Assembly (NCBI GenBank): GCA_903885195.1
Contig: CAISHQ010000153.1
Location: 1 to 49,387, forward strand
Direction of reading: 5' to 3'
Length of the DNA stretch: 49,387 bases
Source: an uncultured Pseudomonadota bacterium
Lineage (GTDB): Bacteria > Pseudomonadota > Gammaproteobacteria > Steroidobacterales > Steroidobacteraceae
Position 1 is the first letter of the stretch; every line of letters starts with the position of its first letter. Under the pieces are notes generated by a model. The model was not told the origin of the DNA. It made no database searches and worked only from the letters and a program-made list of their open reading frames with translations. Positions 12,264 to 42,703 of this stretch are shown piece after piece. The position numbers were made by a program, and so were the translations under genes.

Positions 12264-12307
12264 TGCAAAATAGCCATGACACTCGGCACTGTCAATTAAA
12301 GTTTACG
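12264..12307 (-). promoter_or_regulatory. bchG promoter with tandem PpsR/CrtJ palindromes
   Basis: On the minus strand, CGT-N12-ACA (12290-12307) is followed after exactly 8 bases by TGT-N12-GCA (12264-12281). These are one-mismatch versions of the CrtJ/PpsR consensus TGT-N12-ACA. They cover a sigma-70-like promoter: -35 TTGACA (12290-12295), 17-base spacer, -10 TATTTT (12267-12272). The upstream palindrome overlaps the last bases and stop of ppsR. PpsR bound here should repress bchG-MFS-bchP. Confidence 0.75.
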
Positions 12308-13718
12308 CCCCCGCCCCTGCCGAGCTGCCCTGGATATCGCCGAGACCGTAGCGGCGCAACTTCACGTACAGGCTCTGTCGCGACAGCCCGAGCATCTCGG
12401 CCGCGGAGGCCCGGTTGTCGCTCGTCAGCTCGAGCGCGGCCTCGATGCACAGTCTTTCGATCACATCGGTGGTCTCGCGCACGAGCTCCTTGAGCGATAC
12501 GCGCCCAACGAGTTCGGTCAGCTGCTCCACCGAGCGCGGCAGTTCGCGGGCGGATCGAGCGTCGGTAACGCGCCGGCGCTCGACGTTGCGAATGGCAAAA
12601 CCGAGCCAGGTTTGACCCTCGAGCTCGACGGCGACGGCGGAGATCTCCACCTCCGTGGTTGAGCCGTACTCGCCGCGCAGCGTCGTGGCGAAAAAACGCA
12701 CGCTGCCGTGCTGCCGCAAGTTGGCAACTAGCACGCCAAGGTCCACACCAGGACGACCGAGCCAGCGCTCGAGCGACTCGTTGCGAACCTGCTCGTCGGT
12801 GGCCAATTGCACGAGATCGAGGAAAGAGCGATTAGCGCCAACGATCCGACCCTCGGCCGTCGTAACGACGAGGGCATCGGGCAGGCGCTGCGTGACCTCG
12901 ACCCAGGGACCCGCCGACGTCATAACCGGCGCCACGACCCCGGGGGACGACAGTCGCAGCAGCGCGTGGGACACATTGTCCTGCCGGAAAAGATTGCCCT
13001 GGATCCCGCACTCGCGTCCCGCGGCGCTGCGCAGGCGCAACTCGTCGGCTCGCCCGGCCGTGCGCAGGCCGACCAGCCAGTCCCCGAGTGTTTCTGCGCC
13101 GCGTGCATGGAATGCATCGGTCACCGGTCGTCCGACGAGACGCCGCGCGCCGTCGCCGAGCAAGGCAGCGGCCGACGGGTTGAGTTCGACGATTCGCCGC
13201 GTCTGCAGATCGACGACGAGGATGGCGTCAGACACGCTTTGCAGCAGCAGGCGGTAGCGGGTTTCCGCGAGCCGCAGCCGCGAATAATCACTTTCGATCG
13301 ACTGCTCGGCTTCGATGACCTTTTGCTGCAGGTTGGCGAGCGCGCTGAGATCACGCCCTAGCGCAAGGCACCGACCGTCATCACTGAGGCGGCGCACGCT
13401 GTACTGCACCGCGATCGTCTCGCTACTGCCCGGCGCGGGGTGATTGAGTTGACGCGGCAACGGCTCGTTCGCATCGAGGTCGGCCATTAACAACTCGACC
13501 TTGGGTCGGCTGTCGATCGTCACCACGTCCGCGAACGGGCGACCGACCCAGTCTGGCTGCAGTGCGCTTGAGAGCGTCTTGCTGCCCACCGAGATGTCGC
13601 GGATCACGCCGCGCTTGTCGAGCAGCAGAGCGATGTCCGCTGCCGCGTTGATGAGTCCTGAGACCGTCTCGCCATCGAGTCCAGTCAGGGCCTTCCTTGG
13701 CGCCTTGAATGTTTTCAC
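12303..13718 (-). CDS. ppsR: Photosynthesis gene repressor PpsR/CrtJ
   Basis: A 471-residue transcription factor with tandem PAS domains (N-terminal, about 150-260, about 275-385) and a C-terminal Fis-type helix-turn-helix (NRASAAEMLGLSRQSLYVKL). It represses bch, crt and puc genes under oxidising conditions in purple bacteria. Cys424 (RLCIEAALEL) sits at the redox-sensitive position of the HTH domain. Cys237 may correspond to the second cysteine; Cys117 is also present. The start is GTG at 13718 with only a distant GGAG. It is 12 bases downstream of ppaA on the same strand, forming a two-gene regulator operon. Confidence 0.96.
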   Translation of the reverse strand: MKTFKAPRKALTGLDGETVSGLINAAADIALLLDKRGVIRDISVGSKTLSSALQPDWVGRPFADVVTIDSRPKVELLMADLDANEPLPRQLNHPAPGSSETIAVQYSVRRLSDDGRCLALGRDLSALANLQQKVIEAEQSIESDYSRLRLAETRYRLLLQSVSDAILVVDLQTRRIVELNPSAAALLGDGARRLVGRPVTDAFHARGAETLGDWLVGLRTAGRADELRLRSAAGRECGIQGNLFRQDNVSHALLRLSSPGVVAPVMTSAGPWVEVTQRLPDALVVTTAEGRIVGANRSFLDLVQLATDEQVRNESLERWLGRPGVDLGVLVANLRQHGSVRFFATTLRGEYGSTTEVEISAVAVELEGQTWLGFAIRNVERRRVTDARSARELPRSVEQLTELVGRVSLKELVRETTDVIERLCIEAALELTSDNRASAAEMLGLSRQSLYVKLRRYGLGDIQGSSAGAGA

Positions 13719-25491: not shown

Positions 25492-25542
25492 GACCAATGT
25501 TCCCGAGTGGGGACACGGCCCGTCGCCTTCAGCGATCCGGAC

Positions 25543-31104: not shown

Positions 31105-32253
31105 CTACCCACGCTCAGCAACGAGCACGCTGGTCTGCAACGGGATCCGGGTTGGCCGGCGTCGAATGCGACGAAATCCAGCCGCGCGCAGCATGTCGGT
31201 CAGCTCAGCGGCGGTACGCGGCCGCCCTGAACCCATCGCCCAGAGATAAACGCCGAAATAGGCATCGCCCATGCGCCCCGCGCCCGCCGTGCCGGCCAAG
31301 GGCTCGGCCACGAGCAGCCGTCCACCCGGCGGCAACGCCTCGTACGCAGCGCGCAGCATCCGCTCGACCCGTGGATCGTCGTGGTCATGCAGCACCCGCA
31401 CGAAGGTGATCAGGTCGGCACCGGTTGGCAGTGCATCGCGGCTGAAATCACCGGGTACGACCCGGGCCTTTGCCGCGAGGCCCGCTGCCGCAAAGGCCGA
31501 CTCAGCCTGCGCCGCGACACCAGGCAGATCGAAGAGCATTAACTGCGCCTCCGGTGCACGCGCGGCAAGGGCGCGCAGGAAAGTGCCGTCACCACCGCCG
31601 ACATCGAGCACGCAGCGATGCCCTCGCACGGCGTAGGCATCGAGAATTTCACCCGCCACGAGTTGCTGCGAGGCGGACATCAACCGGGTGTAGGCCCGGG
31701 TCGAATCGCTCGCAACGGCACCGGGGGCCTCCACCGCGGCGTAAGGCCAGTACTGAGCCAGCCCGGTCGAACCGCGCGGAGCGGCGAGCATGGCGAGCGG
31801 ATCGACGAGATCGGCGTACAGCACCGCGTGATGCTCGATCATCGCCAGTACGCCCGGATTGCCGAGCAAGGCGGCGCCACGCAGACCGAGACCCCAACTA
31901 CGCGAGGGATCCTCGCGCTCGCGATTGACCGCCACCCCGGGATCGCGCAATTCGACAAGCTCGAGCGCCGCCGCGGCGCGCAGCAAAGTCCGCAGTGCCG
32001 CCGGCGGCAGATCGATCTGCACCTGCAATTCGCTCTCGCTCACGGCACCGGCGCGCAGACGCTCCAGCAGACCGAGGCGCAGACAGGCGAGCACCACCTG
32101 CGAGTAAACGAAACCCGCGACAACGTCGAACATCTCTCGCGCTTCGAGGCGCGCGATCGAACGAGTCAGGGGAAATGCAGCGGCCCAGCGCTGGAAGCGC
32201 GGGCTCATGACCCATTGGTTGCGCCAATCGCGCCAGGAGCGCTTGCCGAGCAT
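31105..32253 (-). CDS. crtF: Demethylspheroidene/hydroxyneurosporene O-methyltransferase
   Basis: A 382-residue SAM-dependent methyltransferase that methylates the C1-hydroxyl of acyclic carotenoids. The SAM motif is CVLDVGGGDGTFLRALAARAP, followed by FDLPGV and VLHDHDD, typical of CrtF and plant-type O-methyltransferases. The dimerisation domain lies at the N-terminus (RSIARLEAREMFDVVAGFVYSQV). It follows crtE by 29 bases and precedes bchC, the standard crtEF-bchCXYZ-puf superoperon order. Confidence 0.95.
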   Translation of the reverse strand: MLGKRSWRDWRNQWVMSPRFQRWAAAFPLTRSIARLEAREMFDVVAGFVYSQVVLACLRLGLLERLRAGAVSESELQVQIDLPPAALRTLLRAAAALELVELRDPGVAVNREREDPSRSWGLGLRGAALLGNPGVLAMIEHHAVLYADLVDPLAMLAAPRGSTGLAQYWPYAAVEAPGAVASDSTRAYTRLMSASQQLVAGEILDAYAVRGHRCVLDVGGGDGTFLRALAARAPEAQLMLFDLPGVAAQAESAFAAAGLAAKARVVPGDFSRDALPTGADLITFVRVLHDHDDPRVERMLRAAYEALPPGGRLLVAEPLAGTAGAGRMGDAYFGVYLWAMGSGRPRTAAELTDMLRAAGFRRIRRRPTRIPLQTSVLVAERG

Positions 32254-32282: not shown

Positions 32283-33152
32283 TCAGGCCGCGCGCTGCAA
32301 CAGGCTCGCGGGCAGCAGGCGCTGCGCCTCAAGTTCGACGAGATCACGCAGAAACTCGGCGCCCGGACACTGCGGGATCGACTCGGTCGCCTCGCGCATC
32401 AACGCATCGAAGCGCTGCACGGTGCCCTGCAGACCGAGTTCGGCTAAGGCCGTCGGTCGTCCGAGATCCGCATCGCGGTGTGCGGTCTTGCCGAGTTCAT
32501 CGTCCGTGCCAAGCGCATCGCGCACGTCATCCGCCAGCTGATACGCCTCACCCAATCGGTCGCCGAGCGTTCGCCAGGGCGCCGGATCGGCGCCTGCGGA
32601 CAGCGCGCCACCGACCGTCGCAGCGACGAACAGTGCGCCGGTCTTCAAACGCCTGTATTCCTCGAGCGGTGTGGCGGTTTCGCACTCCCACGCCTGACCC
32701 GCGACGATGCCGCCTGGCGCCCCGGCTGCGCGCCCGAGCGCCAACACGATACCGGGGAGCCGCGGTGCGGCCCCAGCGAACGCGCGCGCGACGTTCTGAA
32801 ACGCGAGCACAATGAGCGCATCGCCGACCAGCAGCGCGATCCGCTCGTCGAAAGCACGATGCACCGACGGGCGGTTGCGCCGCAGCGCGGCGTTGTCGAA
32901 ACACGGCAAGTCGTCATGGACCAGCGAGGCGCAATGCAACAATTCGATCGATGCCGCCGTCGCCTCGGCGAGCGGTGAATGCGGCTCTCCGCAACCGGCG
33001 GCGATCGCCAGGCACAGCCGCGGTCGGATGCGCGCTCCGCCGGGAAACACCGCATAACGGATCGCCGCGGCAAGGCGCGGCGGGCAACCTAGCGTGTCGC
33101 AGGAGGCCACTGCGACCTCCAGAGCCTGCTCGATCGCGGAGGTGCTTTCCAT
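32283..33152 (-). CDS. crtE: Geranylgeranyl diphosphate synthase
   Basis: A 289-residue trans-prenyltransferase supplying GGPP for phytoene and for the bacteriochlorophyll tail. The first aspartate-rich motif is LVHDDLPCFDNAALRRNRPSVH and the second is QLADDVRDALG. FPGGARIRPRLCLA is also family-typical. ATG at 33152 is preceded by GAGGG seven bases upstream. It is the first gene of the long minus-strand superoperon and is divergent from crtC. Confidence 0.95.
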   Translation of the reverse strand: MESTSAIEQALEVAVASCDTLGCPPRLAAAIRYAVFPGGARIRPRLCLAIAAGCGEPHSPLAEATAASIELLHCASLVHDDLPCFDNAALRRNRPSVHRAFDERIALLVGDALIVLAFQNVARAFAGAAPRLPGIVLALGRAAGAPGGIVAGQAWECETATPLEEYRRLKTGALFVAATVGGALSAGADPAPWRTLGDRLGEAYQLADDVRDALGTDDELGKTAHRDADLGRPTALAELGLQGTVQRFDALMREATESIPQCPGAEFLRDLVELEAQRLLPASLLQRAA

Positions 33153-33175
33153 GGTCAGGCCCTCAGACTGGCGTA

Positions 33176-33219
33176 TGTCAATTTAGGTTGTCACACTTGA
33201 ATGTAATGCAATATAGACA
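33176..33219. promoter_or_regulatory. crtE/crtC intergenic tandem PpsR/CrtJ sites
   Basis: TGT-N12-TCA (33176-33193) and a perfect TGT-N12-ACA (33202-33219) are exactly 8 bases apart. For crtE, a weak promoter fits: -35 ATTACA (33202-33207), a 16-base spacer and -10 TAAATT (33180-33185), giving a leader of about 20 bases. The second palindrome overlaps the most likely crtC start codon (33206), so its role for crtC is unclear. A plus-strand -35 TTGTCA (33189-33194) has a poor TATAGA at 33212. Confidence 0.75.
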
Positions 33220-34204
33220 CCACCCCGTAGCGAGTCAAACCGGTCCGGACTTTGCGGCATCGCTGCCGACGAACGGCTATGGGTGGTGGTACGTGGATGC
33301 GCTCAGCGACTGCGGCCAACACGGACTGACGATGATCGCCATGCTGGGCTGCGTGTTCTCGCCCTGGTATGCCTGGGCCCGGGCCGCCGGGCGAAGGCGC
33401 GTCGACCCGCTCGAGCACTCGGGCTTAAACCTCGCCCTCTACGGCGCAGCCGGACACCGTTGGACCTTGACCGAGCGCGGCGCAGCGGACGTCGCCCGCA
33501 GTGCCGATCGACTGACCATCGGTCGCAGCAGCCTGCACTGGGACGGTGTGGCACTGCAGGCCGAGATCGACGAAATCACCTCCCCCTGGCCCACGCGACT
33601 GCAAGGTCGGCTGCGACTGATACCGCAGACCTTGATCGGCAACGGCCACGACATCGACCGCGAGGGCGCTCACCGCTGGTATCCGATCGCAGCCCAGGCG
33701 CGCATCGAGGTCGAGTTCACGCATCCGCAACTACGCTGGCAGGGCCATGCGTACTTCGATGCCAATCAGGGCCTGCGTCCGCTCGAGGACGATTTCCGCA
33801 GTTGGAACTGGTCGCGCGCCGCACTCGCCGACCATGCCCGCGTGTACTACGACACCGAATGGCGCGGCGGCGGCGGCACTTCGCTCGCCCTGCGCTTCGA
33901 CGCAAGCGGCACGCATGCATGCGACCCACCGCCGCAGCGAATGCTGCCGCGCACGCTGTGGGGGATAGAGCGCATGACCCGCTGCGACGCGACAGCGGAG
34001 GCTTCCGTCAAGGAGACGCTGGAAAACGGCCCGTTTTACGCGCGCTCGCTCGTAGACACCACGGTGGATGGACATCGCACGCTTGCCTTCCACGAGAGCG
34101 TTTCTCTCGAGCGTTTTGCCTCACGCTGGGTACAGACCCTGCTGCCCGTACGCTTGCCGCGCCGACCCTTACGACGCCGAGATCAGACTGTACCGCTGCG
34201 CTGA
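33206..34204 (+). CDS. crtC: Acyclic carotenoid 1,2-hydratase
   Basis: A 332-residue enzyme adding water to the 1,2 double bond of neurosporene or lycopene end groups. NGYGWWYVDALSDCGQHGLTMIAMLGCVFSPWYAWAR is the family signature. A central QARIEVEFTHPQLRWQGHAYFDANQGL and DFRSWNWSRAAL also fit. The start is uncertain: ATG 33206 lacks a good ribosome-binding site and lies inside a PpsR palindrome. The frame is open further upstream, and the next internal candidates (GTG near 33293, ATG near 33333) would delete conserved sequence. Its 3' end overlaps crtB by 22 bases, tail to tail. Confidence 0.93.
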   Translation: MQYRHHPVASQTGPDFAASLPTNGYGWWYVDALSDCGQHGLTMIAMLGCVFSPWYAWARAAGRRRVDPLEHSGLNLALYGAAGHRWTLTERGAADVARSADRLTIGRSSLHWDGVALQAEIDEITSPWPTRLQGRLRLIPQTLIGNGHDIDREGAHRWYPIAAQARIEVEFTHPQLRWQGHAYFDANQGLRPLEDDFRSWNWSRAALADHARVYYDTEWRGGGGTSLALRFDASGTHACDPPPQRMLPRTLWGIERMTRCDATAEASVKETLENGPFYARSLVDTTVDGHRTLAFHESVSLERFASRWVQTLLPVRLPRRPLRRRDQTVPLR

Positions 34205-35250
34205 TCCATGCGCTCAAGGCGCTCGAAGGCGCGTAGCGCGAGCGAGAATTCACGCGCCAGCAGACTCTCGCCGAGCTGTTCTGCCACCACGCCGTGTTGA
34301 CGATCGTGACGTACTACGGCGTCCACCAGAAACGCGGCCTCGGGCAAGGCAGGCCCGGCATCGACCGGAGGACCACCATGACTCGACACCGTGATCGCCT
34401 GCAGGAGGAGAAACATCTTGCGACGCGCCGAGACGACTGCGCGCGAACTGATCGAGTCGCCACCGTGACGCTGCACCTCGCGGCCAATCTGCGCATACAT
34501 CAGCCTCGCGGCGTGAATCGCCGGTCGGCACTCCACGGGAAGCTCGGCAACGCCGGTCGCCGCGCGGGCGTAGAGTTGCTCAGCCTCGGCGACGAGTCGA
34601 TCGACGAGTCGTCCGAGCCGGGGATCAAAATCGGGGCGCTGCAGCCACTGGTGCGGGTCGATGTCCGAGTCACGCAACCAGCGCAGCGGCAGATAAATGC
34701 GCCCCATGCGCGCATCCTCGCCCACATCGCGCGCAATGTTCGACAACTGCATGCCGACCCCGAGATCCGCAGCGCGTGCGAGCGCGTGCGGCGCCCGCAC
34801 GCCCATGAGCAGCGACATCATGACGCCGACCGTGCCCGCCACGCGCGTCGCGTAGGCGCGCAAGTCGGAGAGGTCCTCGTAGCGGCGCCCCTCGGCATCC
34901 CAGGCGAAACCCTCGAGCAAAGCAGCAGGAATATCGATCGGAATGTGAAAGCGTCGCATCACGTCGGCGAGAGCGCGATCCGCCGCATTGTCGATGGGCT
35001 CACCGCGATACGCACGCTGTAGGCGGTCAGTCAGCACCACGAGTGCTGGGGCCGGATCACTCGCGTTGTCGATCGCGTCGTCGGCCTCGCGACAGAAAGC
35101 GTACAGCGACAGCGCCGGTTCACGTACGCGGATCGGCAGCAGAAACGAGGCCGCGTGAAAGGTTCGCGAACCCACGCGAATCGCCTCGCGACAGGCCTCC
35201 AGGTCCGCCCGCGTCGCCAGGCCAGGTGCCACTCCACCGTCACCCATCAT
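34183..35250 (-). CDS. crtB: Phytoene synthase
   Basis: A 355-residue enzyme condensing two GGPP into phytoene. The aspartate-rich motifs are CREADDAIDNA and QLSNIARDVGEDARMGRIYLP. GTVGVMMSLLMG and the preceding YEDLSDLRAYATRVAG are family-typical. ATG at 35250 (or 35247) follows the ATP-grasp gene by 27 bases. That makes crtB the third gene of a P450 - ATP-grasp - crtB operon, not the usual crtIB pairing; crtI is located about 5 kb away. Confidence 0.96.
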   Translation of the reverse strand: MMGDGGVAPGLATRADLEACREAIRVGSRTFHAASFLLPIRVREPALSLYAFCREADDAIDNASDPAPALVVLTDRLQRAYRGEPIDNAADRALADVMRRFHIPIDIPAALLEGFAWDAEGRRYEDLSDLRAYATRVAGTVGVMMSLLMGVRAPHALARAADLGVGMQLSNIARDVGEDARMGRIYLPLRWLRDSDIDPHQWLQRPDFDPRLGRLVDRLVAEAEQLYARAATGVAELPVECRPAIHAARLMYAQIGREVQRHGGDSISSRAVVSARRKMFLLLQAITVSSHGGPPVDAGPALPEAAFLVDAVVRHDRQHGVVAEQLGESLLAREFSLALRAFERLERMDQRSGTV

Positions 35251-35277: not shown

Positions 35278-36459
35278 TCACTTTACGTCAGCGGTTTGTA
35301 TGGCGGCAACCCGCTTCCCCGCATCGCCTGCCGGCCCGCCGGTCCAGGCCATGTCGAGCATGGCGACCTCACCGAAAGTGCAGCCCCGTCGCAACGCCTG
35401 CTCAATGATGGTCCAAGACGTCAGCGGCATGCTGAGCCAGGGCCAAGGGTCACGCAGTGACCAGGTGACGTCGCGTGCGCGGCGCAGAAAATGCAGATTG
35501 CGCGCGAATCGTTCGGTGAACATCGACTTCTGCGTCTCGGTCAGACACGGATAGAACTGCTGCAGCAAACGCTCCCCGCGATAACGCAGCGTCGGCAGCT
35601 GCTCGGGGTGCAGAATCGCCGCCGCCAGCCCCTCAGGCGCCACAAAGTGAATGCCGCTCGTAGCGCGCGGGTTGCACTCGATGCCACGCACGCGACCATC
35701 CACCTGCTGGACGAGATCAAAGGACACGAATCCGTCGAACTCGCAGTGTCCGACGAAGCGCTCCACCCACTCGGCGACCTCGGGCGGTGTGTCGATGCGC
35801 TCGAAGCATACCGCCACCGTGCCCTGCATCACGGCGCCTCGATAGGTCACCGTGAGCAGCACCCGACCCTGACGCGCAACCGAAAAGGTACTGAGCACCT
35901 GACCTCGGCAAAATTCCTGCACGATGCAGGGCTCATCGACGCGGGGTAAACGAGCGCCACGTTCGAGGAACTGCACGCCGCGACCCGAGCAGGAAGCCAC
36001 CGGCTTGACCACGGTCGGACCGGCATCCGCCAGCGCCTGCGCGTCGGGCGCATCGAGCGCGCGGGTCTGCGGCGCAGCAACACCCGCCGCAGCACATACG
36101 CCCACAAACGAATGCTTGTCGTGCAGCACGCGCAGGGTCGCCAAAGGCATGGAAAACACCCGCACACCCTCTGGCACCCGCTCGCGCAGCGCGGCGGCAA
36201 AGAGGATTTCCTCTGACACCGGCACGACGAGCTGCACGCCCTCTTCGTCGATGATTCGCAGCAGATCGGCGAGATAGCGCTCGTGATCGTCGACCGGGGA
36301 GTGAACCACGACGCTGCGCGCCACCGCGCGCGAAGCGCCGGTCAGGTGTCGTTTGAAGGGCTCGGCGACGATGACGCGGCAACCCGCCGCCGCCAGGGCC
36401 CGCGCCATCTCCAAGGCCTTGGGCAATCGCCCAAGCGTCAGCAGCACGGTTTGGCTCAT
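35278..36459 (-). CDS. ATP-grasp carboxylate ligase-like protein
   Basis: A 393-residue protein of the ATP-grasp fold. The N-terminal pre-ATP-grasp domain (VLLTLGRLPKALEMARALAAAG) has a CarB/PurK-like nucleotide topology. The ATP-binding strand-loop is TVVKPVASCSGRGVQFLER, and the metal-binding strand ends in GIECNPRATSGIHF. The C-terminal 100 residues are Trp-rich and not recognised. Such enzymes join a carboxylate to an amine, thiol or hydroxyl through an acyl phosphate. It lies between a P450 and crtB, and may act on an oxidised carotenoid or related lipid; the substrate is unknown. ATG 36459 is the last of three start codons created by a 14-bp tandem repeat. Confidence 0.8.
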   Translation of the reverse strand: MSQTVLLTLGRLPKALEMARALAAAGCRVIVAEPFKRHLTGASRAVARSVVVHSPVDDHERYLADLLRIIDEEGVQLVVPVSEEILFAAALRERVPEGVRVFSMPLATLRVLHDKHSFVGVCAAAGVAAPQTRALDAPDAQALADAGPTVVKPVASCSGRGVQFLERGARLPRVDEPCIVQEFCRGQVLSTFSVARQGRVLLTVTYRGAVMQGTVAVCFERIDTPPEVAEWVERFVGHCEFDGFVSFDLVQQVDGRVRGIECNPRATSGIHFVAPEGLAAAILHPEQLPTLRYRGERLLQQFYPCLTETQKSMFTERFARNLHFLRRARDVTWSLRDPWPWLSMPLTSWTIIEQALRRGCTFGEVAMLDMAWTGGPAGDAGKRVAAIQTADVK

Positions 36460-36494
36460 GGCAGCAGGCTCATGGCAGCAGGCTCATGGCATCA
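36453..36494. repeat. Three 14-bp tandem repeats at the P450/ATP-grasp junction
   Basis: The unit GGCTCATGGCAGCA occurs three times head to tail (36453-36466, 36467-36480, 36481-36494), the last with one substitution. On the minus strand each unit has an ATG (36487, 36473, 36459). The first two ATGs open five-codon reading frames (MSLLP) whose TGA overlaps the next ATG; the third is the start of the ATP-grasp gene. The TGA of the P450 falls in the last unit. Confidence 0.9.
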
Positions 36495-37889
36495 GGTCTG
36501 CGTTGAACTGACCGCATCCGCGCGGCGCGCGACACGACACATCAGCTGCTGCGCCGGGCGCGTCGTCAAGCGCGCCACGGGACGCACCTTGCGCGCATCG
36601 AGTATCGTGAAATCGTAGCGTCGACAGAGCCTCGCCAGGATGAGGCTCGCCTCGAGTTGCGCGAACCCAGCACCGACACACACTCGCGGTCCGAGGCCGA
36701 ACGGTAGATAGGCGCCTGGCACGAGCTCGTGTTCGCGTTCGGCAGAGAATCGATCCGGGTCGAAGGCATGCGGATTCTTCCAGTAGTCGCGGTGCCGGTG
36801 GATGCACCACGGCGCGATCATCAGCATGGCGCCACGCTTGACCCGATGCGGCCCGATGGTGGCAGGCTCCGCTGCAACACGCGGAATGAAAGTGATCGGC
36901 GGATAGAGCCGCAGGGCTTCGCGAAACACGTTGCGCACGTAACTCATCCGGCGCACCTGCTCGAGGCTGATGGGTCCATCGCCCGCGATCTCCGCGACCT
37001 CGGCCCGAATGCGTGCCATCGCAGGTGGATGCAGGCCGAGAATCATGAAGGCCCAGATCAAGGCACTCGCCGTGGTCTCGTGCCCCGCGAGGAACATGAC
37101 GCCGAGCTGGTCGAGCAGCTCCTTGCGCGTGAATCCCTCGCCCGTCTGCACGTCGCGCGCGGCGATTACTTCGGCGGCGATGTCGTCGTACTGCGTCGCG
37201 TCGGCGGTCAGATGCGTATCGACGAGATCGCCCAGGTGCCGCCGAATGCGCTCGCAAGCCTCGAGCACCTGTGGATGCTGCGGGATCGCGGCGAAGGGTG
37301 CATCGAAGATCAGGCGTTTCAACTCCACCTGCGCACAGGTCCGCTCGAACACGGTGAAGGCCTCGAACACGTCGACCGCAGTCTGTGACTTCAGCGACGT
37401 CGAGAACACCGTGCGGCAGATGATGTCTGCCGTCAGATGGCTCATCGCCAGATCGAGCGACAAAGACTCGCCGCGCTCGGCCGATTCATCCAGCCTGCGC
37501 TCATAGTCATCGACGGCCGCCGACATCGACACGAACGCCTTGTTCAACCGCATGTGTGAGAAGGCCGGATCGATCATCTGGCGTTGCCGGCGCCAGACGG
37601 CACCGCTCGAGACAAAGATCGAATTGCCAACAAGCGGCTCGAGCGCGCCGACCATCAGGTCGTTCTTCGGATAGATGTCGGTGGGATCGGTGAGGATGTC
37701 GCGCAGCAGTTCAGGCTCGTTGACGATCAGAATCGAGCGTCTCGAGTAGCCAAGCCAGCCCGTTTTGACGCGATACGCCTTGGCCGGCAGCAGGCTCAGC
37801 AGATCGCCATCGCCTTGCGCCATCACCCGCAACAACGACACCAGCGCAGCCAAGGGCTGCGGCCGCGGGGGAACATACAACGAACTCAT
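36492..37889 (-). CDS. Cytochrome P450 in the carotenoid gene region
   Basis: A 465-residue soluble P450. The I-helix is AGHETT (268-273), the K-helix ExxR is EALR (324-327), and the heme loop FGLGPRVCVGAG has the axial ligand Cys404. No N-terminal anchor is visible. Overall pattern and length resemble the bacterial P450 group that includes CYP175 carotenoid hydroxylases; this likeness is from memory. It begins an operon with the ATP-grasp protein and crtB, so a carotenoid or another isoprenoid is the likely substrate. A redox partner is not adjacent; the ferredoxin at 3506-3820 is one candidate. Confidence 0.93.
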   Translation of the reverse strand: MSSLYVPPRPQPLAALVSLLRVMAQGDGDLLSLLPAKAYRVKTGWLGYSRRSILIVNEPELLRDILTDPTDIYPKNDLMVGALEPLVGNSIFVSSGAVWRRQRQMIDPAFSHMRLNKAFVSMSAAVDDYERRLDESAERGESLSLDLAMSHLTADIICRTVFSTSLKSQTAVDVFEAFTVFERTCAQVELKRLIFDAPFAAIPQHPQVLEACERIRRHLGDLVDTHLTADATQYDDIAAEVIAARDVQTGEGFTRKELLDQLGVMFLAGHETTASALIWAFMILGLHPPAMARIRAEVAEIAGDGPISLEQVRRMSYVRNVFREALRLYPPITFIPRVAAEPATIGPHRVKRGAMLMIAPWCIHRHRDYWKNPHAFDPDRFSAEREHELVPGAYLPFGLGPRVCVGAGFAQLEASLILARLCRRYDFTILDARKVRPVARLTTRPAQQLMCRVARRADAVSSTQT

Positions 37890-37972
37890 GGCCGTACCCT
37901 AACGCGCACGACGCCCGCCGTGAAGGGCAGAGACTTTACAGGCGCGTGGCTGCAGCGCAGCATCACCACCTC

Positions 37973-38695
37973 ATGGACTCGTTGATTCCGGCTGCCTTCA
38001 AGATCTTCGTCGTGCTGCACATCCTTTTCGGCAGCCTGGGACTCGTCGCATTTTGGGTTCCCGTGCTTGGCCTCAAGGGCGGAGTGCAGCATCGTAAATG
38101 GGGACGTGTATTCAGCGTGTGCATGCTGGTGACAGGTGCGGCCGCGGTCGGCATCAGCACCTGCACGCTGCTCGATCCACTCGGCACGCATCCACATCTG
38201 ACCGATCCGGCGTGGATCCGCGGCATCTTCGGCTGGATGATGCAAGGCCTCGCAATCCTGACACTGAATCTCGCCTGGTATGGCTGGCTCTGCGTGCAGA
38301 ACCGCGAGCGACACGAGGCGAACCTCGAGTGGCGCAATCTCGCGCTGCAAGCGGCGCTGCTCATCGCCTCCATTCACTGCGCTTACCAGTCGTGGCGCGC
38401 GGACCTGCCGCTGATGCTCGGCATGCCCGCCATCGGACTCGCCACCGTCGCCACCAATCTTTGGTTTTTGTACAAGCCGCAGCGTAGACCCCTCGACTGG
38501 TTGCGCGAGCACATCAAAGCCTTGGTCGGCGCGGGCATTTCGGTGTACACCGCATTCTTCGCCTTTGGCGCCGTGCGAACCGTGCCCGCGCTCGCCCTGC
38601 ACCCCGGGCTGTGGGCCATTCCGCTCGTCGTCGGTCTCGGCCTCATTCTCTATCATCAGGCTGCCGTCGCTCGCCGGGCACCGGCGCGCGGCTGA
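37973..38695 (+). CDS. Unknown seven-helix membrane protein upstream of crtD
   Basis: I cannot assign this 240-residue protein to a characterised family. It has about seven membrane helices, beginning IPAAFKIFVVLHILFGSLGLVAFW, with a conserved-looking loop LKGGVQHRKWGRVF that recalls DUF2306-type proteins. ATG at 37973 is used; GTG at 37946 is possible in frame. It ends 8 bases before crtD on the same strand, so both are likely co-transcribed. It is divergent from the P450 operon. Confidence 0.75.
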   Translation: MDSLIPAAFKIFVVLHILFGSLGLVAFWVPVLGLKGGVQHRKWGRVFSVCMLVTGAAAVGISTCTLLDPLGTHPHLTDPAWIRGIFGWMMQGLAILTLNLAWYGWLCVQNRERHEANLEWRNLALQAALLIASIHCAYQSWRADLPLMLGMPAIGLATVATNLWFLYKPQRRPLDWLREHIKALVGAGISVYTAFFAFGAVRTVPALALHPGLWAIPLVVGLGLILYHQAAVARRAPARG

Positions 38696-38703
38696 ACCGG
38701 GCC

Positions 38704-40194
38704 GTGCATCGCGTCATCGTCGTCGGCGCAGGGATGGGTGGCCTTGCCGCCGCAGCCGATCTCGCCCGCCAAGGTCGCCACGTCACCGTGTTTGAGCGCG
38801 CCTCCGCAGCAGGAGGGAAACTGCGCAGCGTCAGCGTGAACGGCCAGCAGATCGACGCGGGCCCGACCGTATTCACGATGCACGAGGTATTTGCGCAGCT
38901 GTTCCGCGACTGCGGCCAGCGTCTCGAGGATCACCTCGATCTCGAGCGCGCGGACATCCTCGCAAGACATTCCTGGAGCTCGGGCGGCGTGCTTGATCTG
39001 CATGCCGATGTGCAACGCTCCGCAGCCGCGATCCGCGAATTTGCGGGAGCGCGCGAGGCGCAGGGTTACCTCGATCTCTGTCACCGCAGCGCACGGGTGT
39101 ACGCATCGCTGCGCGACAGCTTCATGACGGTGGCGCGACCTTCACCGGCGCAACTCGTCGCGCAGCTTGGCGTCCAGGGTCTCGCTGCGATGTGGCGCAC
39201 ACCGCCGTGGCAGTCGCTGTGGCAGGCACTCGGCAGTCATTTCCGCGATCCGCGCTTGCGACAGCTGTTCGGTCGTTACGCCACCTACGTCGGCTCCTCC
39301 CCTCTCGCCGCCCCCGCGACGCTCATGCTGATCGCCCACGTGGAGCAGACCGGTGTGTGGCTTGTGCGCGGCGGCATGCGCAAGGTTGCTGACGCCCTCG
39401 AGAGTCTTGGGCGCTCCCAGGGCGCCGCGTACCGCTATGACGTGGCAGTACACCGCATCCTGACCCGCGACGGCCGAGTGGTTGGAGTCGAGTTGCAGTC
39501 GGGTGAAGTCGTCGAGGCCGATGCCGTGGTCTTCAACGGCGATGCGAACGCATTGGCAAGCGGCGCATTGGGTGAAGGCGTGCGCCCGGCAGCGCGGCCC
39601 ATCGTGCCGCAGCAGCGAGGGCTCTCTGCGGTGACGTGGTGCCTGCACGCACGGACCAGCGGTTTTGCGCTGCATCATCACAACGTTTTCTTTGCCGATG
39701 ACTACCCGCGGGAGTTCTCGGCAATTTTCGCTGATCGCCGCATCACGACAGAGCCCACGGTCTACCTGTGCGCCCAGGATCGGGGCGCAGCGAGCGGCAT
39801 CCCCGTTGATGCACAGGGCCGCGAGCGCATGCTGCTGCTCGTCAACGCGCCGGCCGATGGCGATCGCGGCGGAATCGACGACGCAAACCTCCCGCACTTG
39901 GAACAACGGGTATTCGAATTGCTCGATCGTTGCCATCTGCACATCGCGCGACAAGCCGGCGATGCCGTGGTGACACGTCCGCAGGACTTCGAAAGCCTGT
40001 TTCCGTGCACGGGCGGTGCGCTGTACGGTCGGGCGAACCATGGCGCCTTCGCGAGTTTCGAGAAGCCGGCCTCGCAGACTCGAATTGGCGGACTGTACCT
40101 GGCAGGCGGATCCGCGCATCCGGGACCCGGGATACCGATGGCTACGCTATCCGGGCGTCTCGCCGCCGCACGTCTCGCCGCCGACGCAGGCTAG
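38704..40194 (+). CDS. crtD: Hydroxyneurosporene/methoxyneurosporene desaturase (3,4-desaturase)
   Basis: A 496-residue flavoprotein of the CrtI family. The N-terminal FAD motif is VIVVGAGMGGLAAAADLARQG and the C-terminal FAD motif GGLYLAGGSAHPGPGIPMATLSGRLAA. AGPTVFTMHEVFAQLFRDCG and the HPGPGIP variant distinguish CrtD from the nearby CrtI. It introduces the 3,4 double bond in 1-hydroxy-carotenoids on the way to spheroidene or spirilloxanthin. GTG at 38704 gives the canonical N-terminus. The gene ends tail-to-tail with crtI, 46 bases away. Confidence 0.93.
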   Translation: MHRVIVVGAGMGGLAAAADLARQGRHVTVFERASAAGGKLRSVSVNGQQIDAGPTVFTMHEVFAQLFRDCGQRLEDHLDLERADILARHSWSSGGVLDLHADVQRSAAAIREFAGAREAQGYLDLCHRSARVYASLRDSFMTVARPSPAQLVAQLGVQGLAAMWRTPPWQSLWQALGSHFRDPRLRQLFGRYATYVGSSPLAAPATLMLIAHVEQTGVWLVRGGMRKVADALESLGRSQGAAYRYDVAVHRILTRDGRVVGVELQSGEVVEADAVVFNGDANALASGALGEGVRPAARPIVPQQRGLSAVTWCLHARTSGFALHHHNVFFADDYPREFSAIFADRRITTEPTVYLCAQDRGAASGIPVDAQGRERMLLLVNAPADGDRGGIDDANLPHLEQRVFELLDRCHLHIARQAGDAVVTRPQDFESLFPCTGGALYGRANHGAFASFEKPASQTRIGGLYLAGGSAHPGPGIPMATLSGRLAAARLAADAG

Positions 40195-40240: not shown

Positions 40241-41713
40241 TCAGCGCGGCGGCGGCACGATCTTGTCGAGGATGCGCGCCGAGGAGAGCACGCCCGGTAG
40301 GCCTGCGCCCGGATGCGTTCCTGCGCCGACGAGATACAGGCCCTCGACTTCCTCACTGCGGTTGTGCGGCCGAAACCACGCGCTTTGGAACAACTGTGGC
40401 TCCATGGCGAACGCGGCGCCGTTCATCGAAGAGAGTCGATCGCGAAAGTCGAGCGGTGTCAGCATGTGCGAGGTGGCGATCGACTGGCTGAGACCCGGCA
40501 GTACGGTGGACTCCAGGCGTCGTTCAACCGCGGCGCGGTAAGGCTCCGCGTGGGTGCGCCAATCCGTGCCACTCTGCAAGTGCGGCACGGGCGCGAGGAC
40601 GTAGAACGAATCGCAGCCCGGCGGTGCGAGCGTACTGTCGCTGGCACTCGGACGATGCAGGTAAAGACTAAAGTCTTCGGCGAGCACTTTGTGTTTGAAG
40701 ATGTCATCGAGCAGCGGCTTGTAGCGCGGGCCGAGCACCATCGTATGGTGATACACATCGTCGTAGCGCCGTCGTGTGCCGAAGTACCAAACGAACAGAC
40801 TCATCGAATAGCGCGCTCGCGCGAGCTTCGCGTCGGTCCAGCGTCGGCGCGGATGTCGCGCCAGCAGTTTGCCGTAGGTCCAGGCCGCATCAGCATTCGA
40901 CACCACGATATCGGACTCGAGCACCTCGCCATCAGCGAGTCGCACGCCCCGCGCGCGACCCCGCTCCACCAGCACTTCGCTGACCTCGGCGTTGCAGCGC
41001 ACGCGACCGCCCTGCCGCTCGATCAGACCGACGATGCCACGGACCAGAGCGCCCATGCCGCCCTCTGCGTAGTGCACGCCATGCGTGCGTTCGAGGTGGG
41101 CAATCAGGCAGTAGTACGCCGTGGTGGTGAACGGGTTACCGCCGATCAGCAGCGGGTGAAAACTGAACAGGATGCGCAATTTGTCGCTGCGGAAGTAGCG
41201 CGACACCTCGCTGTAGACCGAACGATAACCACCGAGTCGCAGCAAATCCGGCGCCGCCTTGAACAAGGTCGCAAGCTCGTGGAACGGCTGCTCGGCCTGT
41301 CCGACGAAGGCAACACGGTAGATTTCCTTGCTGACTTCGAGAAACCGATCAAACCCCGCCACATCGCGCGGCTCGATGCGTGCGATCTGCTCGCGCATCG
41401 CGGCGAGGTCCGCGGTGTAACGGAATACATCACCGTCGTGGAAACGTACTTCGTAGAACGGGTCCAGCGCACGCAGTGTTACATCGTCGGCGAGGCGCCG
41501 ACCGCAGGCTTGCCACAATTCCTCGAACAGATAGGGCGCCGTGATGATGGTCGGCCCGGCATCGAAGGTGTAACCGTCCTGCCGATAGACGTAGGCGCGA
41601 CCGCCCGGTGCATCGAGTTTTTCGAGCACCGTGACGTCGTAGCCACGAGCGCCAAGACGTGCCGCTGCTGCCAATCCGCCAAAACCGCTGCCGATGACGA
41701 TTGCCCGAGCCAT
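40241..41713 (-). CDS. crtI: Phytoene desaturase
   Basis: A 490-residue flavoprotein converting phytoene to neurosporene or lycopene. The N-terminal motif is AIVIGSGFGGLAAAARLGARG and the C-terminal one EGLYLVGAGTHPGAGLPGVLSSARI. FDAGPTIITAPYLFEELW and SFHPLLIGGNPFTTTAYYCLIAHLE are also typical of CrtI. ATG at 41713. The product range cannot be read from sequence. It follows bchO by 48 bases on the same strand. Confidence 0.96.
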   Translation of the reverse strand: MARAIVIGSGFGGLAAAARLGARGYDVTVLEKLDAPGGRAYVYRQDGYTFDAGPTIITAPYLFEELWQACGRRLADDVTLRALDPFYEVRFHDGDVFRYTADLAAMREQIARIEPRDVAGFDRFLEVSKEIYRVAFVGQAEQPFHELATLFKAAPDLLRLGGYRSVYSEVSRYFRSDKLRILFSFHPLLIGGNPFTTTAYYCLIAHLERTHGVHYAEGGMGALVRGIVGLIERQGGRVRCNAEVSEVLVERGRARGVRLADGEVLESDIVVSNADAAWTYGKLLARHPRRRWTDAKLARARYSMSLFVWYFGTRRRYDDVYHHTMVLGPRYKPLLDDIFKHKVLAEDFSLYLHRPSASDSTLAPPGCDSFYVLAPVPHLQSGTDWRTHAEPYRAAVERRLESTVLPGLSQSIATSHMLTPLDFRDRLSSMNGAAFAMEPQLFQSAWFRPHNRSEEVEGLYLVGAGTHPGAGLPGVLSSARILDKIVPPPR

Positions 41714-41761
41714 TCATTCACCTCTGCCTAACCTACGCCCTGCACGATACCGTGACGCTGC

Positions 41762-42664
41762 TCAGGATGGAACGATTCGCCGCTCGCGGGCCGCATCGAC
41801 GATCAACTGCGCGAGCATCGCCGGCTGCTCCTCGTGTGCCAGATGCCCAAGGCCCGGCAACTGCGTGATCTCGGTCTGCGGCAACAGACGACGCACGCGC
41901 ATGGCTTCGCCCGGCAAAATCATCCGATCGTTGGCACCGACGACCAGCCGCAGCGGCGTGGGCAGGGCCGCCATTTCGCGTTCGAGCGGACGTACATCCC
42001 ACACGCCCATCATGGCGAGCGCCGCGCCCGCATGTGCCGGGGATCGGACCAGACGCGCATACAGCTGCAAGCCGCGGGCGTCGAGTTGCGAGCCCGTCGC
42101 CTGCAGCAATCGCTCCACCTCGCCGGGACTCTCGAGTCGTTTGGCGAACCACCTCGACAACCAAGCGCTGCTGACGAACGGTCGAATGAGGGGCGTGAGG
42201 GCCGGATGCTTGAAACCCGGTAACGGCAGCAGCGCGCCATTCAAGCTGACGAGCAGATTCGGCGCGATGCGTCGGTCGAGACACATCCGGCACAGGATCG
42301 CCGCTCCGGCGGAATGACCGACGGCGAGCACGGGGGCAAGCTGCAATTCTTCGAGCACAGCGGCCACGCCGGCCGCCATACCGGGCAGCGACAGGCCGGC
42401 AAGGTCGCGGGGGCGCTCGGTGAAGCCATGCCCGGGGAGATCCGGGGCAACCACCGTGAAAGTCTGCGCAAGCTGCGGCAACAGATCGCGGAATGAATGC
42501 GTCGAGGCGCCCGTGCCATGGAGCAGCAGACACACGGGGCCCGTGCCCGCGCACTGCACGTGCCAACGCAGACCCGCCGCCGTCACAAAACGGCTGCAGT
42601 CGCGGTTCGGCCAGTCCTGGCCGTCCAGTTCCCATGAGGGAGCACGCAATGGCGTCACTGTCAC
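41762..42664 (-). CDS. bchO: Alpha/beta hydrolase BchO, Mg-chelatase-associated
   Basis: A 300-residue alpha/beta hydrolase. The nucleophile elbow is GHSAGAAI, the oxyanion region LLLHGTGASTHSFRDLLPQLA, and the catalytic His lies in PGLGHLAHEEQP. WDVRPLERE is a BchO signature. BchO is normally encoded with bchI and bchD for Mg insertion into protoporphyrin IX, with an unclear role; here those genes are absent and crtI follows instead. GTG at 42664 is used, 39 bases from the divergent alpha/beta hydrolase. Confidence 0.9.
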   Translation of the reverse strand: MTVTPLRAPSWELDGQDWPNRDCSRFVTAAGLRWHVQCAGTGPVCLLLHGTGASTHSFRDLLPQLAQTFTVVAPDLPGHGFTERPRDLAGLSLPGMAAGVAAVLEELQLAPVLAVGHSAGAAILCRMCLDRRIAPNLLVSLNGALLPLPGFKHPALTPLIRPFVSSAWLSRWFAKRLESPGEVERLLQATGSQLDARGLQLYARLVRSPAHAGAALAMMGVWDVRPLEREMAALPTPLRLVVGANDRMILPGEAMRVRRLLPQTEITQLPGLGHLAHEEQPAMLAQLIVDAARERRIVPS

Positions 42665-42703
42665 CTCTCCGTCCCCGCTGCTTGCGGTATGTTACCCGCA
42701 CCG

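Follow-up and report, generated by a model that had tools for sequence, protein, structure and literature searches.

A cytochrome P450 module tied to carotenoid genes in phototrophic proteobacteria, a candidate for carotenoid tailoring

The photosynthesis gene cluster of an uncultured member of the Steroidobacteraceae encodes a cytochrome P450 whose genomic context associates it with phototrophic members of two proteobacterial classes and with carotenoid genes. The cluster lies on contig CAISHQ010000153.1 (assembly GCA_903885195.1), and the whole stretch analyzed, 49,387 nucleotides, is called the window here. Beside the P450 (36492-37889, minus strand), which looks like the core of the module, stand a PRK06849-like ATP-grasp ligase (35278-36459, minus strand) and a third gene, orf249 (37946-38695, plus strand), which encodes a hydrophobic multi-helix protein weakly similar to DUF2306. 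On genomic context, we consider it fairly likely that these genes are a carotenoid-tailoring module of aerobic phototrophs. The module would add a new tailoring branch to a known pathway, and it probably makes a carotenoid not yet described.

Outside the window's genus, orthologues of the P450 are found in nine genomes: G032 (66% identity), G672 and G946 (64% each), G296 and G028 (62% each), Ahrensia R2A130 (60%), G158 (58%), G919 (56%), and G927 (51%). The eight carriers besides Ahrensia bear eight different family labels, and G672, G946, G919, and G927 are taken to be Alphaproteobacteria from their labeling as same phylum, other class. These genomes come from several searches, which drew on 40 relatives, 369 genomes of the class (with the ATP-grasp ligase as query), 398 of the phylum, 53 of the family of G158 (where G158 itself is the only orthologue), and 385 of the class of G672, while the Ahrensia locus comes from a scan of genome contigs (9 loci). 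All nine carriers have pufM (9/9), a gene present in 31 of the 398 genomes of the phylum draw; because the carriers were gathered from several searches and possibly share a history of gene transfer, no probability is attached to this count. The P450-negative genomes tested for pufM are those of the phylum draw. Here (the 398 genomes are apparently the same in both searches), orthologues at E <= 1e-90 occur in the window genome and G672 only, with the third match, in G430, being a 38% paralogue. Thus, the P450 is present in 2 of the 31 genomes with pufM, one of them the window's own, and in 0 of the 367 without it, making it a minority trait of phototrophs that is not seen outside them.

How the module is placed in these genomes ties it to carotenoid genes. 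It adjoins crtA, crtB, or crtD in six of the nine, and bchI in a seventh, which is the linkage expected of carotenoid tailoring. G672 has the gene order of the window: crtB and crtD flank the module, and crtI comes next. In G158, the module abuts crtB, and in both G032 and G028 it abuts crtD, with crtI near. In two genomes, crtA immediately precedes the P450 on the same strand, with a gap of 5 bp in G919 and an overlap of 8 bp in G927. The crtA products score 294.6 in G919, just under the NF045923 cutoff of 300, and 307.6 in G927, above it, and in the latter genome crtI and crtB come after the pair, no more than 6 kb away. G946 has the P450 next to bchI and ~4 kb from crtI, and its orf249 adjoins ispH. 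The initial annotation, which had proposed a P450 and ligase pair acting on carotenoids, named as its own refutation a pair found mostly outside carotenoid clusters. Among the six genomes outside the genus that have the pair, four have it among crt genes, and the remaining two, G296 and Ahrensia, have it apart from them yet are phototrophic. It may be asked whether the module instead acts on another pigment-related isoprenoid, such as a bacteriochlorophyll side chain, a quinone, or an apocarotenoid signal, with the proximity to crt genes reflecting only membership in the photosynthesis cluster. We regard this as unlikely: the linkage to phototrophy rather than to any single crt gene, the setting in G946, and the unlinked trios of G296 and Ahrensia are in its favor, whereas the direct contact with crtA, crtB, or crtD in six genomes, including the overlap of reading frames in G927, argues against it.

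The three genes are kept together in a nested fashion. The ATP-grasp gene is linked to the P450 in six of the nine genomes (G032, G028, G158, G296, G672, and Ahrensia), side by side in five and with orf249 between in Ahrensia, while orf249, whose presence was scored in the fetched loci, is linked in seven, namely these six and G946. The trio is contiguous in five of the six ATP-grasp-bearing genomes and lies within 6.5 kb in G028. It takes three arrangements, with the P450 and ATP-grasp genes in line, converging, or diverging, and in Ahrensia orf249 and the ATP-grasp gene overlap by 4 bp; that the trio is kept through all three argues for selection on togetherness and not inertia. The ATP-grasp ligase has no match genome-wide (E <= 1e-8) in G946, G919, and G927, and orf249 was not seen near the P450 or in the photosynthesis-cluster stretches of G919 and G927, the regions searched for it. 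The genomic context supports the initial annotation's central idea of carotenoid tailoring and adds a third gene that it had overlooked. Its pair is real, but the two enzymes need not occur together: the P450 seems to be the core, with the ligase as an accessory. We infer from the nesting (nine genomes with the P450, seven with orf249, six with the ligase) that orf249 and the ligase extend the P450 step, and it suggests a possible order of action. A reading in which only the P450 acts on carotenoids, as an oxidase, and the other two genes serve another role (protein or cofactor support, or transport) could draw on the three genomes that have the P450 without the ligase, and on ATP-grasp genes without a nearby P450, both in a second G032 copy (L030) and in distant relatives (G209, G220, and G403). 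The close grouping of the trio in several orientations and the Ahrensia overlap speak against it, and we judge it quite unlikely.

Within the genus, the ATP-grasp gene is present in 20 of 24 members, including the window genome (G000; 2.7 Mb in 201 contigs), with three members giving no match and G011 a weak one (32%, E 4e-9). Loci were drawn for 15 of the 20, and in all 15, the window's included, the P450, the ATP-grasp gene, and crtB are neighbors in that order. The three members with no ATP-grasp match have no pufL match (0/3), and two of them, G016 and G022, also give no crtI at the threshold used; in G005 (77% complete, no ATP-grasp match), crtI is present, and its contig stops ~1.2 kb beyond the crtD match. 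G011, a phototroph of the same genus that is 85% complete, has pufL and the run crtI-crtD-crtB-crtC-crtE-crtF (L070:8226-12563). None of the trio genes has a match in the interval from crtD to crtB, and a P450 search at E <= 1e-30 gives nothing in this genome, which offers a natural cassette-minus comparator. In a tree of CrtI, the sequence from G672 (of another class by its kinship label) falls into one group (96/95) with those from the window's genus and order, from G032, and from G011, suggesting that crt genes moved between classes. Since G011 falls inside this group, loss of the cassette seems likelier than its never having been there, on a fork that the tree leaves open.

Measured against a relative (L016), the ratio of nonsynonymous to synonymous substitution rates (dN/dS) is 0.035 for the P450, 0.094 for the ATP-grasp gene, and 0.064 for orf249, compared with 0.033 for crtB and 0.024 for crtI, so that each of the three appears to be a real gene, constrained by purifying selection. 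Chance, or passenger genes sharing a promoter with crtB, would suit the short same-strand spacing in the window and the dispensability of the cassette in G011 but is very improbable given the recurrence in genomes labeled as eight other families and in Ahrensia, the purifying selection, the presence of pufM in every carrier, and the differing crt partners; the initial annotation's simpler option, that a promoter is all that the pair has in common with crtB, is disfavored in the same way, as the pair is not mostly found outside carotenoid clusters.

The P450 itself is a clear member of its family. Its 465 residues match PF00067 at 231 bits (cutoff 22.8; E 3.2e-68). It carries AGHET (268), EALR as its ExxR motif (324), and FGLGPRVCVG (397), the last placing the heme cysteine at 404, as the initial annotation had it. 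The closest sequence match in the PDB is LUT5 (6l8i, 6j94; E 1.3e-52), a distant similarity. LUT5 is CYP97A3, a plant carotene hydroxylase, and such a closest solved relative fits a carotenoid-binding P450, though at a distance. In a P450 tree, the orthologues split from the two included paralogues at 100/100, and 10 of the 16 inner branches are open. Paralogues at 38-40% identity (L059, L087) were observed in three genomes of one genus (g374), G430, G983, and G1072, with pufM in none of the three, and are apparently a sister family. A tblastn search of 72,556 plasmid records returned 734 records for the P450, every best place being below 60% identity and the best among those listed 38.0%, and no orthologue, with records very near the window possibly excluded.

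The ATP-grasp protein (393 residues) belongs to its superfamily by PF02655 (E 3.5e-7, above the Pfam cutoff) and by the ATP-grasp fold of its predicted structure. The GIECNPRATS motif, which the initial annotation had also picked out, begins at residue 259, and ECNPR is invariant in 15 aligned sequences including that of the window. In the predicted structure, residues 312-393 have a predicted local distance difference test score (pLDDT) below 50, and the model aligns about equally to GAR synthetases, biotin carboxylases, and L-amino acid ligases; with ligases and carboxylases tied, the model does not single out a substrate. The same plasmid search gave 13 records for this protein, with every best place below 60% identity, the best among those listed at 32.3%, and no orthologue. 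Relatives at 28-32% identity on Paraburkholderia, Pontibacillus, and Shinella plasmids (L076:4793-11273, L077:8031-13255, L078:8956-16292) sit apart from crt genes in a common set encoding ketosynthase III-like, NAD(P) oxidoreductase, MBL-fold, and F390/CoF synthetase-like proteins, plus a GNAT protein in two of the three, which resembles a biosynthetic cluster. The second copy in G032 (51%; L030:8909-10216) has no P450 or crt match within the 19 kb fetched around it. For orf249, His 25, 49, 82, and 189 are invariant in 14 sequences, and one may speculate that these four histidines could bind heme or metal. Its predicted structure is helical with a pLDDT of 70 and matches only assorted helical bundles, and for these reasons we claim no fold assignment.

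The promoters bear on whether the module is under the photosynthesis regulator PpsR/CrtJ; the site of CrtJ is given as TGTN12ACA in PMC5362033. The P450/orf249 promoter of Ahrensia contains TGTCAGTTTAATTGGACA at L021:9191, which fits TGTN12ACA and is the sole TGTCN10GACA in 21,131 bases; the number expected in this gap by local composition is ~0.002 for the strict form (TGTCN10GACA) and 0.044 for TGTN12ACA, and ~0.03 strict sites are expected over all regions scanned. Ahrensia has further strict boxes, upstream of crtI and in the interval from crtD to crtE, and a ppsR relative (36%) is encoded in its photosynthesis cluster. Boxes with one mismatch are found in the G032 and G672 promoters and upstream of crtA in G919 (16 regions) and are absent from the window and the other genus copies of that scan. 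In one copy from the genus, L072, a loose match sits where the P450 begins. Because the strict form was defined once the Ahrensia site was known, and 15-16 promoter regions were scanned, the Ahrensia box is modest evidence. In the window, a PpsR box in the module promoter was considered and rejected, as the 56-bp divergent region between the P450 and orf249 (37890-37945) contains none and the loose TGTN12ACA sites of the window are at chance level (5 versus a shuffle mean of 5.39). Three of these sites, at 25498 (upstream of pufL), 31070 (crtF/bchC), and 33202 (crtE/crtC), are possible PpsR sites, in a window whose total is that of chance.

Several observations weigh against a carotenoid-tailoring role. 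The G927 orthologue ranks a different P450, 7wzl, first in the PDB sequence search, the similarity of the window P450 to CYP97 is distant, and CYP97 enzymes act on cyclic carotenoids. No redox partner is seen adjoining the P450. Within the phylum draw, the gene is rare even among genomes with pufM, and three carriers have no ligase; conversely, the distant ATP-grasp relatives in G209 (33%), G220 (26%), and G403 (32%), all from the class draw, are in genomes with no P450 orthologue. The trios of G296 and Ahrensia are away from crt genes, that of Ahrensia being among corrinoid and methyltransferase-type genes by our reading of the open reading frames (ORFs), while the crtA-P450 pair of G919 is, by the same reading, beside histidine-utilization-type genes on a contig other than those of puf and crtCDEF, with no further crt gene found near it. 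At the level of regulation, loose TGTN12ACA sites are common, with six in 21 kb of L021, and no strict PpsR box is present at the promoters of the window or of the other genus copies scanned.

With carotenoid tailoring as the favored role, an acyclic carotenoid is the substrate that we infer, since the cluster encodes CrtE, CrtB, CrtI, CrtC, CrtD, and CrtF and one of crtA, crtB, and crtD is repeatedly the module's direct neighbor. P450s insert oxygen from O2. The module enzyme would use O2 to oxidize the acyclic, spirilloxanthin-type carotenoid made by these Crt enzymes. Like the CrtA reaction, this oxidation would come late in the pathway and depend on oxygen. In the lineages that also have orf249 and the ATP-grasp ligase, these would then extend the P450 step, probably by conjugation. 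ATP-grasp ligases activate carboxylates as acyl phosphates. Here, the ligase would spend ATP on activating a carboxylate, linking the oxidized carotenoid to a small acceptor. It might act on a carboxylate made by the P450, as the initial annotation had conjectured, or place a small acid onto a hydroxyl made by the P450. This ligation step, taken alone, is the weakest part of the mechanism; it is possible, and on balance doubtful. Put in full, the proposal is of a new bacterial carotenoid class. An acyclic, spirilloxanthin-type C40 carotenoid would be oxidized by the P450, and the ATP-grasp ligase would then couple it, by an amide or ester bond, to a small molecule such as an amino acid. The product would be a polar pigment, perhaps one that protects aerobic phototrophs from light; we offer this proposal tentatively, as a rather unlikely outcome. 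That the specific P450 product might be of a rhodopinal type stays no more than an idea, given that a P450 requires O2 and that rhodopinal is reported from purple sulfur bacteria (PMC10604819).

Family searches show the window to be a photosynthesis gene cluster, in the order bchP, bchG, ppsR, puhA, dxs, ispH, pufC, pufM, pufL, bchZYXC, and then the crt genes. The cluster's ppsR/crtJ regulator is at 12303-13718 (minus strand; TIGR02040 491 bits, above cutoff). The crt genes begin with a probable crtF O-methyltransferase (31105-32253, minus strand; PF00891 E 2.4e-39), named by its position between crtE and bchC, followed by a crtE-like polyprenyl synthase (32283-33152, minus strand; PF00348 E 8.7e-42) and a probable crtC, carotenoid 1,2-hydratase (33332-34204, plus strand, start approximate), which scores 272 bits with NF045922 (cutoff 400) over residues 128-406 of ORF 32951-34204. 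Next is crtB, phytoene synthase (34183-35250, minus strand; NF045921 394 bits, cutoff 500; PF00494 E 2.2e-67), and, as the initial annotation described, the P450 and ATP-grasp ORFs stand in line ahead of it with short same-strand spacing. Both are on the minus strand, with 32 bp from P450 to ATP-grasp and 27 bp from ATP-grasp to crtB. On the plus strand, orf249 starts 56 bp from the P450 start and ends 8 bp ahead of the likely start of crtD, hydroxycarotenoid 3,4-desaturase (38704-40194, plus strand; NF045637 653 bits, above cutoff), if that start is the GTG at 38704, which was picked among candidate starts. This creates two divergent units, P450-ATP-grasp-crtB (minus strand) and orf249-crtD (plus strand), with crtI, of the phytoene desaturase family (40241-41713, minus strand; TIGR02734 611 bits, above cutoff), beyond. 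The cassette thus sits between crtD and crtB, and to say that it replaces a crtIB arrangement, as had been suggested, is imprecise, since the order crtI-crtD-crtB, with crtI and crtB apart, is also found where the cassette is missing (L070). Upstream of crtI, an ORF of 322 residues (41733-42701) has no family match, and among the fetched loci its homologues (32-55%) are confined to members of the genus, where they hold the equivalent position.

A literature search, one leaving out most subscription journals and preprints, found no published description of a P450/orf249/ATP-grasp module and none of ATP-grasp ligation of a carotenoid; such ligation, if real, would be chemistry for which no description was found. 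A P450 module with acyclic crt genes in two classes, together with the cassette-minus G011 and the PpsR-boxed copy in Ahrensia R2A130, would lend itself to a direct knockout experiment. Among known systems, DUF2306 (PF10067), described merely as a predicted membrane protein, resembles orf249 through a weak N-terminal match of its homologues and a helical model, but the scores are below the Pfam gathering cutoff of 31.6 (24.4 bits, E 3.5e-5, for the G672 homologue; 14.6 bits, E 0.037, for the window). PRK06849/NF005315 shares with the ligase near full-length similarity and the ATP-grasp fold, whereas the window protein reaches 241 bits over residues 3-375 against an equivalog cutoff of 406. The CYP97 enzymes, of which LUT5 is the closest solved sequence relative of the window P450, are P450s acting on carotenoids; they belong to plants and chloroplasts and act on cyclic end groups, while the module P450 is bacterial, stands with acyclic-pathway genes, and is only distantly similar. 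CrtA, the spheroidene monooxygenase (NF045923), oxidizes acyclic carotenoids in phototrophs, and in two genomes its gene immediately precedes that of the P450, but it is not a P450 according to PMC10604819, whereas the module enzyme is a true P450 with its Cys404.

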